Part shown: positions 27,658 through 35,074 of the stretch, one piece after another
Numbering within the stretch: position 1 is the stretch's first letter
How the letters are laid out: each line of letters starts with the position of its first letter
Source: Ordospora colligata OC4
Taxonomy: Eukaryota > Microsporidia > Ordosporidae
Reading direction: 5' to 3'
NCBI RefSeq assembly: GCF_000803265.1
Contig: NW_014575404.1
Location: 1 to 64,000 of the forward strand
DNA length: 64,000 nucleotides
Program-made: the position numbers and the translations under genes
The notes under the pieces: generated by a model
The model's database searches: none
What the model was told of the DNA's origin: nothing
Seen by the model: the letters and a program-made list of their open reading frames with translations, nothing else

Positions 27658-29775
27658 CTATATGGATCCAGCGCTTTCGTAGAACATATGCAAATCAGCA
27701 TGTACTTCAACAATCTCGCCTGCTCGTACTGATATAATTGTATTGCATATCAGCTGTAGCATCTGCTGGCTACTGCTTGTAAGCAAGTCTTTTTCTGCAT
27801 AATCACTATCAGCATATCGTGGTGACATATTCTTTAACTTTGAGCATACAGTATAAAACTTATTGAATGTTTCTATATCCACTTTCATGACATAAGTTTC
27901 GTATATTTCCCTAGCTTTAGATGCATTGTTACAATCCATGCAAATAAGATAAATAGACCAGACAAAAAACTCCATATTCCTTATTGCAACTTGCCCAGTA
28001 TTCACAAAATATATCATGGATCCAACAAAGCTTCTACTACTCAACAATCTCCTTTTCAGACTCTCACTTAGTTTTGAATTCATGAAATATCCTATGCGCT
28101 CTTTTAACATTCTTCTATCGTTATATGCCAATTGTATTTCCACATGCTCCTCGCAGCTACCCTTATAATTTAGCACTAGCGGTCCAAGAACATCAATAGG
28201 TAGTTTCATACAAGATAAGAAATATAGCATTGCAAATGAAACTTCCTGTTGCTGAACATAATCAATGTATTGAGTGACATACTTTGAGTGTGCATAAATT
28301 AAAAGCTCTGTATCTGACCTTGGCGCTAAATGCCATTTCTTCTCATATAAATATGGTTTCAAATCATCAATCATTACAATCACATCGCTGCTTCTGTTTC
28401 TATATGTAATTAGCTTTGATATTAAAATATCTGCATATTCATGTATATTTCTGTATTTCAAGTATTCCAGCGCAGATAAAACATCAACCTCTATTAGCTT
28501 CATGATCTCACAGTCAGGTACCGATCCACAAAAGAAATATTTGATATAAAACCTTCTTTCTTCTGTATTGATTGGAAAGTCTTCATTATTAGTCTTAAGT
28601 TTTCCATTTGATAACTCAAGAAATTCATGCAATCCCTTGAAGGCACACAATTGGAAATAAACCTTCCATGGCAGTTCTGCTCTGATCATTACATTAACAT
28701 ATTCCTGCTTTCTTCCCGTGAACATTCCTTTCAATATAAACTCTACAAATCTTAATAAACATTTTGAATTTCCATCAATATCTTCTAACTCAGGCTTTCG
28801 CTTACAATCACAAATAGAATTTATCAAACACTCTTTGTATTTACAAACTCCTTCGTTAAATACCTCAAAAACTCGGCTTCTAACACAGTCACTCAAATCA
28901 AGTACTCGCTCATGCATCTCCAAGCCATTCAAAGCAATATCATCAAACGTTATCTTTTCCAACAGTTTGATTCTTACATTCTCATCATTATTGTTTATCA
29001 TTCTATTAAATGCATCTCTATTGATATAACTACAGTTATCAGCAAGTAGCATAATTACCTCTTTACTTCTATCTGCTCCATAAATACTAAACAGCTTTTC
29101 AAAATTCTGCCCACACACTGCAGACTTCAAGTACTTAACTTTGTTGCATCCTCTTATATTTCTTATACACAGGCTTTTATTCAATGTAAGACTCGAATAT
29201 ATATCAACATATTTCTTATCATCAAATCCTTCCATCAATATTTCAACAATAGGCATCGATGCTTCTTTGGTAGCTTCAATCACACTATTTATGCTTTCAT
29301 CTCTCGCAATATGTCCAAGAAGTATTTTGATTATTTCCTTCACTATGCTTTCAGGCTTTTCCTCTATTAACACAATAATCATCTCCTTCAAGTATTGCTT
29401 TGCTGCCCCAGAAACACATCCTATTAACCTAACAAGCTTCATAATCAATCCTTTGTCTGTGAGTAGACTTGACATCCTGTATTCAATGAAATTCTCTAAG
29501 TTTATCTTTTCACTAGGAAGAATTTTTATCAGCAATCCAAAGAATCTGTTCATTTCGTCCTTGCTTAGAAAGCACTTGGGTGCACTTATTCTTAGTATCT
29601 CTATGATTCCAAGTAATGTATCTACTACTTCTCCCTCGCTATTTAATTTCTTTGCAAAATATGTATGTATGTCGTCTTCAATAATGACACCCTGTGGCAT
29701 CTTTTTAAGTCTCAGGTACATTCCGAATCCTTTGCTACGAGCCTCCATCTCCCTTTCATTTTTTGTAACTTCCAT
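27658..29775 (-). CDS. PDS5: Sister-chromatid cohesion factor PDS5
   Basis: PDS5 regulates cohesin on chromosomes. The 705-residue protein is an all-helical HEAT solenoid. Near the N-terminus the segment VVDTLLGIIEILRISAPKCFLSKDEMN lines up, in my reading, with the conserved PDS5 repeat ACCLADILRIYAPEAPYT. Further on, DENVRIKLLEKI and later CVRSRVFEVF follow the PDS5 HEAT pattern. PDS5 is usually 1200-1400 residues. A condensin HEAT subunit is the main alternative. The ATG at 29775 has CCC 4 nt before it. It is divergent from the ORC1/CDC6 gene by 51 bp. Confidence 0.65.
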   Translation of the reverse strand: MEVTKNEREMEARSKGFGMYLRLKKMPQGVIIEDDIHTYFAKKLNSEGEVVDTLLGIIEILRISAPKCFLSKDEMNRFFGLLIKILPSEKINLENFIEYRMSSLLTDKGLIMKLVRLIGCVSGAAKQYLKEMIIVLIEEKPESIVKEIIKILLGHIARDESINSVIEATKEASMPIVEILMEGFDDKKYVDIYSSLTLNKSLCIRNIRGCNKVKYLKSAVCGQNFEKLFSIYGADRSKEVIMLLADNCSYINRDAFNRMINNNDENVRIKLLEKITFDDIALNGLEMHERVLDLSDCVRSRVFEVFNEGVCKYKECLINSICDCKRKPELEDIDGNSKCLLRFVEFILKGMFTGRKQEYVNVMIRAELPWKVYFQLCAFKGLHEFLELSNGKLKTNNEDFPINTEERRFYIKYFFCGSVPDCEIMKLIEVDVLSALEYLKYRNIHEYADILISKLITYRNRSSDVIVMIDDLKPYLYEKKWHLAPRSDTELLIYAHSKYVTQYIDYVQQQEVSFAMLYFLSCMKLPIDVLGPLVLNYKGSCEEHVEIQLAYNDRRMLKERIGYFMNSKLSESLKRRLLSSRSFVGSMIYFVNTGQVAIRNMEFFVWSIYLICMDCNNASKAREIYETYVMKVDIETFNKFYTVCSKLKNMSPRYADSDYAEKDLLTSSSQQMLQLICNTIISVRAGEIVEVHADLHMFYESAGSI

Positions 29776-29826: not shown

Positions 29827-30681
29827 ATGGCGATAGAAAATCTTAGAAGACTATATAACTCGTTTGCAAGACACACTAACCAAATATACTTGAGAATTGA
29901 GGAGATGTGTGCAATAAATTCATTTGTTAAGTCCGAAAAGCTTGTTCTTCACATATGTGGAAATCCAGGAACAGGAAAGACACACGTTACTACAAATACT
30001 CTAAAGTGTGAGTTTATGTACATAAATTATTATACTGAGAAGAACATTTTTGAGATTATAAAGAAAAGCACAAGCTTAGTTGTGGTTATTGATGAGTTTG
30101 ATAAATATTATCACGAAAGAAATAATGAGTGTTTACAAATGATGGCATATCTAAGAAAGAAAAACAGAAAGATAATAACGCTATCGAACAATTTGAGAAT
30201 GCCTTCTGAGGCATTGTTCTTCAAGCCATACACTTCACTAGACATGGAGTTAATTTTGAAGCAAAAAGTAACTGAACAGTATACCGAGGAGATTCTAAAC
30301 AACACCTTAATCAAAATGATTTCAAGAAGGTTTGGGCCTTCGGGTGACCTTAGGTCGTTATTCAAGCATATACAGGATGTTATAGCTGAAAAGATTTTGA
30401 TTGCTGAATCACAAATTTTAGGCAATCCATCAACCATTGACAGTTCAATAAAAACCTGCAATCATACAAATATTGCACTTCAGGACATTCAGATAGATAA
30501 AAACGGATTCTCAGATCAGCCAGGCAATTTTCATCATGAAACCATTCGGTCTCTGATATCAAACAGCAAAAAGCTTTCCAAAATAGAGATATATTCCAAA
30601 TACCTGAATGAATGCCATGAAATGAAAATACCTTCTTATGACAGAGTTGATTTTAATATTATCTATGATATGTACAATTGA
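29827..30681 (+). CDS. ORC1/CDC6-family AAA+ ATPase (replication origin licensing)
   Basis: The 284-residue protein has Walker A GNPGTGKT (about 44-51), Walker B VVVIDEFD (about 82-89), a sensor-1 LSNN, and a sensor-2 region FGPSGDLRSL. A small C-terminal helical (winged-helix-like) segment follows. ORC1 and CDC6 share this core. The absence of a BAH domain and the short length fit CDC6 or a stripped ORC1, which I cannot separate. It acts in MCM loading. The ATG at 29827 follows CCC by 9 nt, and the gene shares a 51-bp promoter with PDS5. Confidence 0.8.
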   Translation: MAIENLRRLYNSFARHTNQIYLRIEEMCAINSFVKSEKLVLHICGNPGTGKTHVTTNTLKCEFMYINYYTEKNIFEIIKKSTSLVVVIDEFDKYYHERNNECLQMMAYLRKKNRKIITLSNNLRMPSEALFFKPYTSLDMELILKQKVTEQYTEEILNNTLIKMISRRFGPSGDLRSLFKHIQDVIAEKILIAESQILGNPSTIDSSIKTCNHTNIALQDIQIDKNGFSDQPGNFHHETIRSLISNSKKLSKIEIYSKYLNECHEMKIPSYDRVDFNIIYDMYN

Positions 30682-30727: not shown

Positions 30728-31528
30728 TTATACATAGTACTCATGAAATGATGGATGTCTGGGTGATGTCTCGGGAAATATCATTCCGTTTTCAAACGGT
30801 CCTATCAAGAACAGTGTACGTACAGGTCCCAATACATCCATAAGATTACCAAGCACTCCTCTATCGTACGGAGATTTGGATGAACTGATGCCTTGAAATC
30901 TACTTAGATCATTCTGCTTAAGCTCTTCAATAAATGTAATGTTCAGAATAGCCAACCTCATCTGCAAATACAGGAAAATACTGGTTATTACAGTCAGAAC
31001 CATAGAAGACATTCCACAAAGTATCAGGATGTAATAATCTTTCTTTGACTCCAAGGAGATCCCATATACAAGGATCTGAACACACTTTGCAGCTGCAGAA
31101 AGAAAAACAACAAAGTTGGCTAATGCAGAAAACAATAAGAATCTGATAAAGTGTCCTTGGTTATCGTAGTTCACACAATTATTTATCCAGAAGCAATGAT
31201 GATCCATTTTCTTAATACAGTGACCGCATGAAGAGCAATGATGTGCCCGTTCTGGCCTGTAGTTTATACATTTCTTGCAGAACTTCTTGTTCTGGCACTC
31301 TTCTATCAACTTAATTGTTTGTGTGTCATAGATCACGTGTCCTCTATATGCGATTGAGAGGATGAGATATAGAACTGAAAGCATAGACAGCACAAGCATT
31401 GAATATGTGTAAACAGATCTAATATCGGAATCAGTTGGAGACACATATTTTGCAAATGAGGACACATATGTAAATGCAAGCAGCAGTATAAGAAAGCTTA
31501 ATCGGAAATTCAGCTTTATTTTGCCCAT
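30728..31528 (-). CDS. DHHC-type protein S-palmitoyltransferase
   Basis: DHHC enzymes attach palmitate to cysteines of membrane-associated proteins. The 266-residue protein has two membrane segments, then the cysteine-rich domain with CKKC, HHCSSCGHC and the catalytic DHHC followed by FWINNCV (about residues 85-130), then two more membrane segments. The four-segment layout and length are normal for small family members. The ATG at 31528 has CCC about 3 nt before it. The family member (PFA3/PFA4 type) cannot be decided. Confidence 0.9.
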   Translation of the reverse strand: MGKIKLNFRLSFLILLLAFTYVSSFAKYVSPTDSDIRSVYTYSMLVLSMLSVLYLILSIAYRGHVIYDTQTIKLIEECQNKKFCKKCINYRPERAHHCSSCGHCIKKMDHHCFWINNCVNYDNQGHFIRFLLFSALANFVVFLSAAAKCVQILVYGISLESKKDYYILILCGMSSMVLTVITSIFLYLQMRLAILNITFIEELKQNDLSRFQGISSSKSPYDRGVLGNLMDVLGPVRTLFLIGPFENGMIFPETSPRHPSFHEYYV

Positions 31529-31589: not shown

Positions 31590-32423
31590 TCAAAGCTGTT
31601 TTGCATGTGCACTGTTATTGGAATATCTCAGTAGAGCTGAGTAATCATCTGCCCATAACGGACCAATAAGCTCGTATGAGTGCAGAGTTCTTGAGTCTTC
31701 CTTAACTATGCATCTGTTGTGTAATCTTATAGAAAACAGAATCCCATTATCGAATTGGCCTTCAGAAAGAATAAAAGGAATTATAAATGACGATGAGACG
31801 GGTGCATTGATTATACAGTCAAAAACTAGGCACATATCTATTTCTTTGACAATTAAATAGTCGTTATGCTCATTGAAGTCTATTTCGTTTTTGCTCAGTT
31901 CATGCTTCATTCCTGTAGTGATTCTTAAATCGTCTCCAAACATTAAAAAGTCATTTTTGATCTTCATGTAAAACGGTAGCCTGGTTCTTTTGTACATCTT
32001 GAATACTGACTTCAGTGCTATAAGATACTCTAGATACATCTTCTTGAAAAGCAAGGATCCATCGTTCCGTGTCTCCATATCAAATGGGAATTTGTACATC
32101 TTCTTTTCCTGAAAGTTTATGCTTTCTTCAGTGAGAAGCATGGCTGATGCAAGTATTGCATGTTTATGTTTCTTTTCCGCATGATTTATGTTGGTTTTGC
32201 TCTTTATTAGCATTGATTCAAAGACAGAGTCTTCTATCTCTGTGCGTGTGTGAAGGCTACTCTCAGGCATTTTGATTTGCTGTTTGTATATTGAGTTGGA
32301 GAGTATATCGAATGGATCGTCACTTACTCTAGTTGTCCAATCCATCCTATTTGGAAGACCGGTGGATGATTTGATGACATCTGGCGCATCTTTATCTTTT
32401 TGATGTACCATGTGATTTTTCAT
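31590..32423 (-). CDS. Candidate DONSON homologue (replisome assembly factor)
   Basis: DONSON helps assemble the CMG replicative helicase in animals. The 277-residue protein shares several spaced segments with DONSON as I know it: MDWTTR near the N-terminus (DWSLKTR-like), the FKKMYLEYLIALKS / LPFYMKIKNDFLMFG stretch, TTGMKHELSKNEIDF (TRGLREAMRNEGIEF-like), and HSYELIGPLWADD near the end (SLEITGPIMPHS-like). Order and spacing agree. Human DONSON is 566 residues, so this is a reduced copy. Codons above 32423 lead only to a TTG. The identification rests on visual comparison from memory and needs a profile search. Confidence 0.5.
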   Translation of the reverse strand: MKNHMVHQKDKDAPDVIKSSTGLPNRMDWTTRVSDDPFDILSNSIYKQQIKMPESSLHTRTEIEDSVFESMLIKSKTNINHAEKKHKHAILASAMLLTEESINFQEKKMYKFPFDMETRNDGSLLFKKMYLEYLIALKSVFKMYKRTRLPFYMKIKNDFLMFGDDLRITTGMKHELSKNEIDFNEHNDYLIVKEIDMCLVFDCIINAPVSSSFIIPFILSEGQFDNGILFSIRLHNRCIVKEDSRTLHSYELIGPLWADDYSALLRYSNNSAHAKQL

Positions 32424-32589: not shown

Positions 32590-33825
32590 ATGCCAAAGCT
32601 TGTAGACGAGCTATTAGCAGATTACGGAACGATTCCACAGAAAATAGGCAACTTCCTGATGAAAAAAAATGAAAGCACGAGTAAGAGCATATCATCAAAC
32701 ACATCTTTGTCTAATAATCAAGTGATAAATGGCCTTTCCTTCTTGATTCAGCGACGATTTGTGAGATACTTCGTGTATGAAAAGGAAGTGTACTATTCCT
32801 TGGCTAAAGAAATGATCTATCGTAGATTGCTATACTCTACTTACTACTGTGCCGTAGAAGACATGTTTGGACCAGATATTACAAATCGGTTCGTTGAAAT
32901 ACTTATTGCTGGGTTTGTTGAAATAGAATGCAATACAGCAGCGCAAGATGCGATCCAGAGCCTTGTGGATGAGGGCATTGTATGTATGCTGGGTAAAAAG
33001 GAAGCCAGTTTGTTTTCAATGGGATCGAGATGTATTGTTAAGAATGCCTCGAAGTGTACTGATGATGAAAATGATGTTAGTGTAAGCAAAAAGAATAAGG
33101 TACTGAATGGCAAAGTATTTGTGATGGTTGACTTTGATGTTCTTGATAGCATAGTTGCAAGAAATAAGATGCAGAGGTTTATTCAGAGGAAGTATTTGAG
33201 AAAATCAAAGGATATATATGCATCTATCTTGAAATGCAATCTTGTAACGATTGATGCAGTAATGGGCAATCTTGATCAAAGCATTTGTTTTGACATAAGT
33301 AGAAGCGATGTCATTTCTTGCATAAAATACTTCTGTAACAGTGGATTATTGAAAAAGAGCATGGATGGCTCCGATATGTATTTCAGAGATGTTGATGAGG
33401 AGCGAAAGATTCTGATTATAGACTGTTTCTGCAGAATACTGACAAACACCAACAAGCATGCTCTAAGACTGTTCAACATGATGATTCATCACAAAGAGCT
33501 GGAAGACAAGGATATTGCGCTTAAATCTCTCATATGTGCTAGATCGGTTAAGAAAGCGCTTATGATGCTGCATTCTAATGGATTTGTGAATCTGAAGCAT
33601 TTATCATCAAGCGAATCCAGGCCTGTGCTGCAATGGCAAGTTGATATTGGCCGGTCATCAAAAATTGTAGGAGAGAAGATAAGGAAGGTTCTTGGAGAGA
33701 TTCTATCTTCAATTAATATCAAATGGCACGTAATGAGGCCGGACGATGAAGCAAATGCAGATGAGGTTATGCAGCTTAAGAGCTTGCACAATCTGTCTGC
33801 TGATCTATTTGTTATTGGGCTCTAG
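32590..33825 (+). CDS. RPC82: RNA polymerase III subunit RPC82 (RPC3 / C82)
   Basis: RPC82 is part of the RPC82-RPC34-RPC31 initiation subcomplex of RNA polymerase III and contains extended winged helices. The 411-residue protein shows four such helix-turn-helix units, for example SNNQVINGLSFLIQRRFV near the start and SRSDVISCIKYFCNSGLLKK near residue 240, and ends with a coiled segment. Typical length is 530-650. The frame reaches upstream to a TTG, and the first ATG is at 32590. The pol III 5S rRNA gene lies 20 kb away. Confidence 0.8.
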   Translation: MPKLVDELLADYGTIPQKIGNFLMKKNESTSKSISSNTSLSNNQVINGLSFLIQRRFVRYFVYEKEVYYSLAKEMIYRRLLYSTYYCAVEDMFGPDITNRFVEILIAGFVEIECNTAAQDAIQSLVDEGIVCMLGKKEASLFSMGSRCIVKNASKCTDDENDVSVSKKNKVLNGKVFVMVDFDVLDSIVARNKMQRFIQRKYLRKSKDIYASILKCNLVTIDAVMGNLDQSICFDISRSDVISCIKYFCNSGLLKKSMDGSDMYFRDVDEERKILIIDCFCRILTNTNKHALRLFNMMIHHKELEDKDIALKSLICARSVKKALMMLHSNGFVNLKHLSSSESRPVLQWQVDIGRSSKIVGEKIRKVLGEILSSINIKWHVMRPDDEANADEVMQLKSLHNLSADLFVIGL

Positions 33826-33871: not shown

Positions 33872-35074
33872 ATGATTGAGAATCTGAAGCAAGCGCTTGA
33901 AAGAATAGCTGAGCTTGAAAGAAAGATTGAAAGCCAAGAGATAGTGATCAGTGCACTTGTTGCTGAAGTAAAAAAAGTCAAAGAAACAGAAGATTCTAGT
34001 AAACAGCAGGAGCGTTCAGAATGCAAAAATATTATTTCAGAATGCTTGGAAAAAAATGAGTACTACTGCGAAAGCAAAGCTGAAAATGAGTACATAAAGA
34101 AAATGGACGATAGGAATGTGTCTTTTGAGGAAGATGTTGAAGGCATATTCAAATCAAAAAAAGCACAAAAACCTTTTAAAGAAGCATTTACGGTTGATTC
34201 ATTCATAGCATATTGCAGAGATATGCATTCTTTTGGATTGATTAGTAGATCAGATGGGAAGTCAAAGAAAATGTTTCGCTGCTGCATCAAGCAGTATGTT
34301 GAAAAGGTTACTAGACATCTGATGGTGAACCTAAACGTGTATGATCTGAACACTCTATGTTCGGCATTTAATCTTCTTTGCGCAGAGATGGAATACAACC
34401 ACAAGCTTGTTATTGCACATGATATCATTTTGCTGGTTGACGATTTTTCAAGGATGCCTTTTATTGTTTCTGCGGTGTTTAACAACCAAGGGATTCATAG
34501 CGATGTACTTGGAGAAACGGTGTCGAACATTGTGATGCATCAATGTGACATTGATAGTGAGATGTATTCAGACAGTCCGAATCTCGTCAGATACTATGCC
34601 AGGATATCTGCAAATTTCGGCAATCATACAGATGTAAAGCCTCTAGGAGATATATGTAGCGATTTGATTGGTGATATACATGCATTTGAAGATGGCGAGA
34701 TCAATGAAGCGATATTTCCGCGGATGTATTCTATTAGAGCTTTGTGTCACTATATGGACTGGGATTACTCTTACAATGAGTTTGTGTGTGGAGTATTATA
34801 TCCCAGGCTAGTGGAGAGGCAGGAGGCATTATGTGCTGTTTATATGTTTTCAGTGGTGTTTAATGCATTAAGGGTATTCGGAGAAGTTGAAAGCGTGAAG
34901 ATGTCGCTCGAGAAATTGAAGGGGATGATACATGATGACTCTGAGCTTTCTGCAGTTTGTTATATGTTTGTTAAGCAAATTGATCCTGACTGTGCGGAGC
35001 AGTGGTTTAGAATGCATGGAGATAGAGTAAAAAGCGTAAGTGCCAAGTATTTAAAGGATGTACTGATATATTGA
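33872..35074 (+). CDS. Hypothetical protein, coiled coil plus helical repeat domain
   Basis: The 400-residue product starts with a coiled coil (about 1-45), then a charged linker, then an all-helical domain (about 105-395) that looks like an alpha-solenoid. One conspicuous stretch is IRALCHYMDWDYSYNEFVCG near residue 290. There is no membrane segment or catalytic motif, and I do not recognise the family. It lies 46 bp after RPC82 and upstream of TAF4 on the same strand, and the ATG at 33872 has GGG about 16 nt before it. Confidence 0.75.
   Translation: MIENLKQALERIAELERKIESQEIVISALVAEVKKVKETEDSSKQQERSECKNIISECLEKNEYYCESKAENEYIKKMDDRNVSFEEDVEGIFKSKKAQKPFKEAFTVDSFIAYCRDMHSFGLISRSDGKSKKMFRCCIKQYVEKVTRHLMVNLNVYDLNTLCSAFNLLCAEMEYNHKLVIAHDIILLVDDFSRMPFIVSAVFNNQGIHSDVLGETVSNIVMHQCDIDSEMYSDSPNLVRYYARISANFGNHTDVKPLGDICSDLIGDIHAFEDGEINEAIFPRMYSIRALCHYMDWDYSYNEFVCGVLYPRLVERQEALCAVYMFSVVFNALRVFGEVESVKMSLEKLKGMIHDDSELSAVCYMFVKQIDPDCAEQWFRMHGDRVKSVSAKYLKDVLIY

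Follow-up and report, generated by a model that had tools for sequence, protein, structure and literature searches.

A probable reduced homologue of the replication factor DONSON in the microsporidian Ordospora colligata

In animals, DONSON contributes to the assembly of the helicase with which DNA replication begins. The gene described here lies on contig NW_014575404.1 of Ordospora colligata OC4, from a genus that parasitises water fleas, microsporidia being strongly reduced relatives of fungi, in a stretch of 64,000 nucleotides (positions 1 to 64,000 of the forward strand, hereafter the window), and encodes a protein of 277 amino acids (P0001) that is very probably a divergent, reduced homologue of DONSON (DNSN-1 in Caenorhabditis elegans) acting in replication initiation. 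It occupies 31590..32423 on the minus strand and belongs to the Pfam family DUF5095, to which Pfam gives no function. A preliminary description, made from the sequence of the window, had proposed at this place a DONSON homologue in a minimal form of about 277 residues. The homology is supported by a search of solved structures and by a profile comparison from which a loop of the animal proteins was removed. The proposed size stands for a 277-amino-acid core, whose MCM3-binding loop is gone; the best-supported description of P0001 is therefore a DONSON core without this loop, and not a full minimal DONSON.

The gene and its family

P0001 is encoded by a single intact frame running from 32423 down to 31590 (277 codons plus stop). 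The open frame reported in the preliminary description is thus real and intact, with its strand corrected to minus; the plus-strand frame translated across 31590..32423 is riddled with stops. The start codon is common to the Ordospora pajunii protein. P0001 matches the Pfam model DUF5095 (PF17016) with 220.4 bits (E 3.3e-65, cut-off 27) over profile positions 1-229 of 229, and by this score it is a full-length member of the family.

Searching 5.8 billion proteins twice brought the family to 23 members, P0001 and 22 homologues, with identities down to 24%; the second search scored only the 7997 candidates with most words in common, and the family may therefore be larger. Homologues are present in other microsporidia, where the preliminary description had suggested looking for orthologues: the named members come from O. 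pajunii (75% identity to P0001, the nearest named protein), Encephalitozoon hellem (48%), Encephalitozoon cuniculi (47%), Encephalitozoon intestinalis and Vittaforma corneae. A search of viral contigs for relatives of the family produced 45 pattern matches, none of which was confirmed. In the O. colligata genome (2.28 Mb, 13 contigs) P0001 is the only match. Considering the 22 homologues, the 220 bits to DUF5095 and the single genome match, this is a real gene and not a chance open reading frame (ORF).

Predicted fold and profile comparison with DONSON

The structure of P0001 was predicted from alignments with AlphaFold2 (AF2), and the model was used in a Foldseek search of solved structures. 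With seven alignment rows the prediction was unusable (mean predicted local distance difference test, pLDDT, of 38) and a Foldseek search meaningless, which was solved by using all 23 rows. The search then pointed to DONSON alone, in agreement with the preliminary description, which had named structure prediction as a check. P0001 is accordingly predicted to have the globular fold of DONSON, in a domain spanning approximately residues 86-265 (31629..32168, minus strand); sequence identity in the structural alignments is 13-17%. The same kind of search in a viral structure library gave no match at E <= 0.001.

For the profile comparison, a DONSON profile of 27 rows was built (25 mammal-type, one frog and one worm; the named matches among those listed were all mammals), and both profiles were trimmed to their cores, DUF5095 from residue 84 and DONSON to 160-510 (Xenopus numbering) with 336-411 removed. 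Under these conditions hhalign gave a score of 33.9 across 135 columns in order, while the maximum of 200 column permutations for this cut was 20.65 and the reversed alignment scored 12.8. The resemblance of the DUF5095 core to DONSON is beyond chance, and the profile-profile match along the DONSON core is significant once 336-411 is removed. The matching segments of this alignment follow the order given in the preliminary description and include the best of its segments, TTGMKHELSKNEIDF (residues 169-183; 31875..31919, minus strand), which hhalign pairs with DONSON TTRGLREAMRNEGIEF; the profile-profile check, made with hhalign against our own DONSON profile and not as a database-wide HHpred search, thus agrees with the proposed homology when the animal loop is out.

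The score depends on what is cut and on which rows are used. With the loop kept, the trimmed cores reached 20.8 over 60 columns only, which is near noise. Removal of 340-400 gave 28.8, removal of exactly the published D3 loop (345-395) gave 26.5, and eight 76-residue cuts elsewhere, two of them partly overlapping the loop, gave 18.8-21.1, all of these being scores for which the permutations of the 336-411 cut were not repeated. Among subsets of DONSON rows, the worm alone scored 23.0, the frog alone 25.9 and the mammal-type rows alone 22.7; on the DUF5095 side, the seven Ordospora/Encephalitozoon-type rows scored 35.2 and the other 16 rows 21.8. Raw hhalign gave a single-template E of 0.04 with the seven rows (137 columns in order) and of 0.12 with all 23, in an alignment that ends at residue 184 and is of doubtful register before the domain. 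Comparisons with HMMER of the mostly mammalian DONSON profile with the seven DUF5095 proteins, and of the 23-row DUF5095 profile with DONSON, stayed at noise, and neither phmmer with P0001 nor hmmsearch with the seven-row profile found DONSON among the PDB sequences. The weakness of the raw scores is likely due to the shallow DONSON profile and to the long loop of animal DONSON.

Six residues of the core, F151, F162, P216, F224, G254 and P255, are identical in every row of both sets, 23 microsporidian and 27 animal; a seventh identical position, P113, lies where the alignment was extended by force and is unreliable. In addition, the Pfam model PF27662, precomputed on all the DONSON matches listed (the best 120 of 906), is also precomputed on the E. 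cuniculi member of DUF5095 (P0005), one of the 23.

The D3 loop, the interface positions and the tail

In frog DONSON, Tyr8 is reported to contact GINS, Asn67 of an NPF motif to contact POLE2, and Asn430 to contact TOPBP1, the last being needed for TOPBP1 binding as judged from the effect of N430A (PMC10801813). The D3 loop is described as Xenopus 345-395, with a helix that binds MCM3 (PMC7616792). Where animals carry this loop, the hhalign alignment shows a gap, and P0001 has a short connector (residues 184-190; 31854..31874, minus strand). Across the family this connector measures about 7-9 residues, in no row more than two longer than in P0001.

Asp202 (31818..31820, minus strand) aligns with Asn430, a position that is Asp in 23/23 microsporidian rows and Asn in 27/27 animal rows. 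The neighbouring Asn206 (31806..31808, minus strand) aligns with Xenopus Asn434, which is Asn in all 23 microsporidian and in 25 of the 27 animal rows. At the position of Met463, in the dimer interface, 22 of the 23 microsporidian rows have Val, Leu or Ile.

Ahead of the domain, as in animals, the tail carries a motif that reads NPF in 20 of the 23 members and NPL in two. In animals the NPF motif is reported to bind POLE2 (PMC10801813, PMC12808100). The corresponding position of P0001 in the 23-row alignment is residues 36-38 (32310..32318, minus strand). Several Vittaforma-type members begin with a short, basic N-terminus that, by eye, somewhat resembles the Sld5-binding peptide of animals (residues 6-22, with Tyr8).

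Two further features of the tail were observed. Among the 16 members that do not belong to the Ordospora/Encephalitozoon group, 13 have a [ST]-P-x-S pattern ahead of NPF (P0007, P0129-P0138, P0142 and P0143; for example LVQTPVS, FLETPSS and YIDSPVS), as against none of the seven that do, counts that were not set against a chance expectation. Of the three members that lack the pattern, P0140 has a sequence that starts at NPF. The pattern is a possible site for cyclin-dependent kinase (CDK). Because the binding of animal DONSON to TOPBP1 is stated not to be CDK-dependent (PMC10801813), a CDK-regulated microsporidian DONSON would differ in this respect. Between NPF and the domain there is a second conserved stretch, residues 64-72 (window 32208-32234), which reads EDSVFESML here and TDEFILSGL in others, is a short helix of low confidence in the predicted model, and by eye lies opposite an acidic/aliphatic/Trp stretch of the animal DONSON tail. 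That the MCM3-binding helix might have shifted into the tail at this place is an idea only.

Possible partners and mechanism

The same genome has one match to the GINS family, eight to MCM models, three polymerase B-subunits and a partial match to a Pol epsilon domain. One B-subunit candidate, L005, has a DNA_pol_E_B domain, and its C-terminus aligns with human POLE2 at 31% over the final 53 residues of the latter; it is termed POLE2-like because of this domain and this alignment only, and phmmer found no match to it in the PDB. A protein of 553 amino acids with five BRCT stretches is a TopBP1/Dpb11 candidate. The models for GINS, MCM and Pol epsilon match although that for Cdc45 does not, which would mean either a very divergent Cdc45 or its true absence.

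Homology and the presence of these possible partners suggest a role of P0001 in GINS delivery. The DONSON-core protein would act at replication initiation as a GINS-holding carrier, as in animals; its globular face would bind the TopBP1/Dpb11-like BRCT protein, its N-terminal NPF-type motif would loosely tether DNA polymerase epsilon, and it would take GINS to MCM, so that the Cdc45-MCM-GINS (CMG) helicase could be built. Because the MCM3-binding loop is missing, the mechanism cannot be exactly that of the frog or the worm, and docking on MCM would have to use other contacts; the BRCT protein, GINS itself or the second contact that DONSON makes with the MCM3 A-domain could be considered. Tentatively, and with less than even confidence, we propose that the loop-less microsporidian DONSON delivers GINS without a grip of its own on MCM3, that the Dpb11/TopBP1-like protein does the docking, and that this is a living intermediate between the animal and the yeast mechanisms.

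Points against DONSON homology and alternative explanations

Several results weigh against reading P0001 as a DONSON homologue active in replication initiation. In the Foldseek search, E was below 0.001 for the worm chains only; Xenopus DONSON surfaces only when the top 1000 chains are realigned, and the template modelling (TM) scores are modest (0.48/0.42). The sequence evidence is weak as long as the animal loop stays in, and the boundaries 336-411 were picked after the gap had been seen, with permutations for that cut only. PF27662 is precomputed on none of the other 22 members of DUF5095, P0001 included. The D3 loop with its MCM3-binding helix (Xenopus Asp374, Glu377 and Trp381) is absent in 23/23 rows, the animal dimer-interface residue Trp234 meets an alignment gap, the motif of P0001 itself is DPF and not NPF, and the GINS-binding N-terminal peptide is, by eye, unrecognisable in the Ordospora/Encephalitozoon proteins. 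As for the other initiation factors, the Pfam models of Sld3 and Sld2 found no match in the genome, in a search where no control rang and absence is thus not established; the Cdc45 model found none either, with one control ringing below the cut-off, so that its absence is likewise not established.

Some of these points would also fit a protein that is DONSON by descent and has been repurposed, no longer delivering GINS and serving only as a tether of Pol epsilon or as another nuclear scaffold. The loss of the D3 loop and the change of Asn430 to Asp throughout the family agree with this, as do the unrecognisable GINS peptide of the Ordospora/Encephalitozoon group and the fact that the better-kept element of the tail (20/23) is the NPF-type motif, which tethers Pol epsilon in animals. 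On the other hand, core positions are invariant, those paired with the TOPBP1-binding site among them; this very small eukaryotic genome has kept the gene, with a single match; and it also contains GINS, MCM, Pol epsilon and a TopBP1/Dpb11-like candidate. We consider repurposing improbable.

Far less likely still is a fold reached independently, with no ancestry in common with DONSON; the low identity in the structural alignments, the modest TM-scores and the near-noise profile scores with the loop kept would suit it. The least credible explanation is that these residues fit a different family better, such as that of the RNase P subunit RPP40, whose fold is weakly similar.

Genomic neighbourhood

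On one side, the DONSON-core gene is flanked by genes for a DHHC palmitoyltransferase (30728-31528, minus strand) and a small Cdc6/ORC-like ATPase identified by Pfam (29827-30681, plus strand); on the other, by those for the RNA polymerase III subunit RPC82 (32590-33825, plus strand) and a DUF5087 protein of 400 amino acids (33872-35074, plus strand; Pfam E 9.5e-88). The ATPase has 284 amino acids, with an AAA match above the Pfam cut-off and a Cdc6-ORC lid slightly below it, and is a very small candidate replication initiator close to the DONSON homologue. An ORF of 705 codons at window positions 27658-29775 is without significant Pfam match.

Significance and comparison with known systems

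Neither the DONSON identity of DUF5095 nor its reduced form was found in the open-licence literature. In that literature, supplements and subscription journals lying outside the search, DUF5095 is not mentioned, and DONSON and microsporidia come together only in an unrelated plant-virus review; a term search of the main text of a study on structure-based microsporidian annotation (PMC10759460) gave neither DONSON nor DUF5095. That so small a eukaryotic genome keeps the core suggests that this animal-type factor was already there at the separation of microsporidia from the fungal line, and that it was worth keeping under extreme reduction. The occurrence of DONSON in a lineage that left the fungal line early agrees with existing knowledge. 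A recent review asks whether origins are opened by different mechanisms in yeast and in animals, yeast being described as without DONSON (PMC12203968), and a structure paper of 2026 asks which yeast factor performs its job (PMC13421386).

Reading DUF5095 as DONSON gives this family, which occurs in several microsporidia, a function that can be tested. It also offers a natural experiment, in that a DONSON here does without the MCM3-binding loop, the contacts of which are important to CMG assembly in frog extract and to fertility in the worm. If the proposal is true, a microsporidian that has a BRCT protein beside its loop-less DONSON could stand between the animal and the yeast arrangements.

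Of the systems compared, animal DONSON (DNSN-1, humpty dumpty; Xenopus 8q6o, C. elegans 8ouw, PF27662) is like P0001 in predicted globular fold and segment order, in the six identical and fully conserved core residues, and in the NPF-type motif, which lies in a disordered tail ahead of the domain. P0001 differs in size, with 277 amino acids against the 579 of the Xenopus chain and a region before residue 112 that is, by eye, much shorter. It also lacks the D3 loop and its MCM3-binding Trp helix, has Asp in place of Asn430 and DPF as its motif, shows no recognisable N-terminus and leaves Trp234 unmatched. The comparison with yeast rests on statements in the literature: Sld2 and Dpb11 serve there, without DONSON, in the step proposed for P0001, the delivery of GINS to MCM. 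DONSON and Sld2 are stated to have no sequence or structural homology (PMC10801813), and Dpb11 has been suggested to carry the GINS-recruitment function of DONSON in yeast (PMC13421386).
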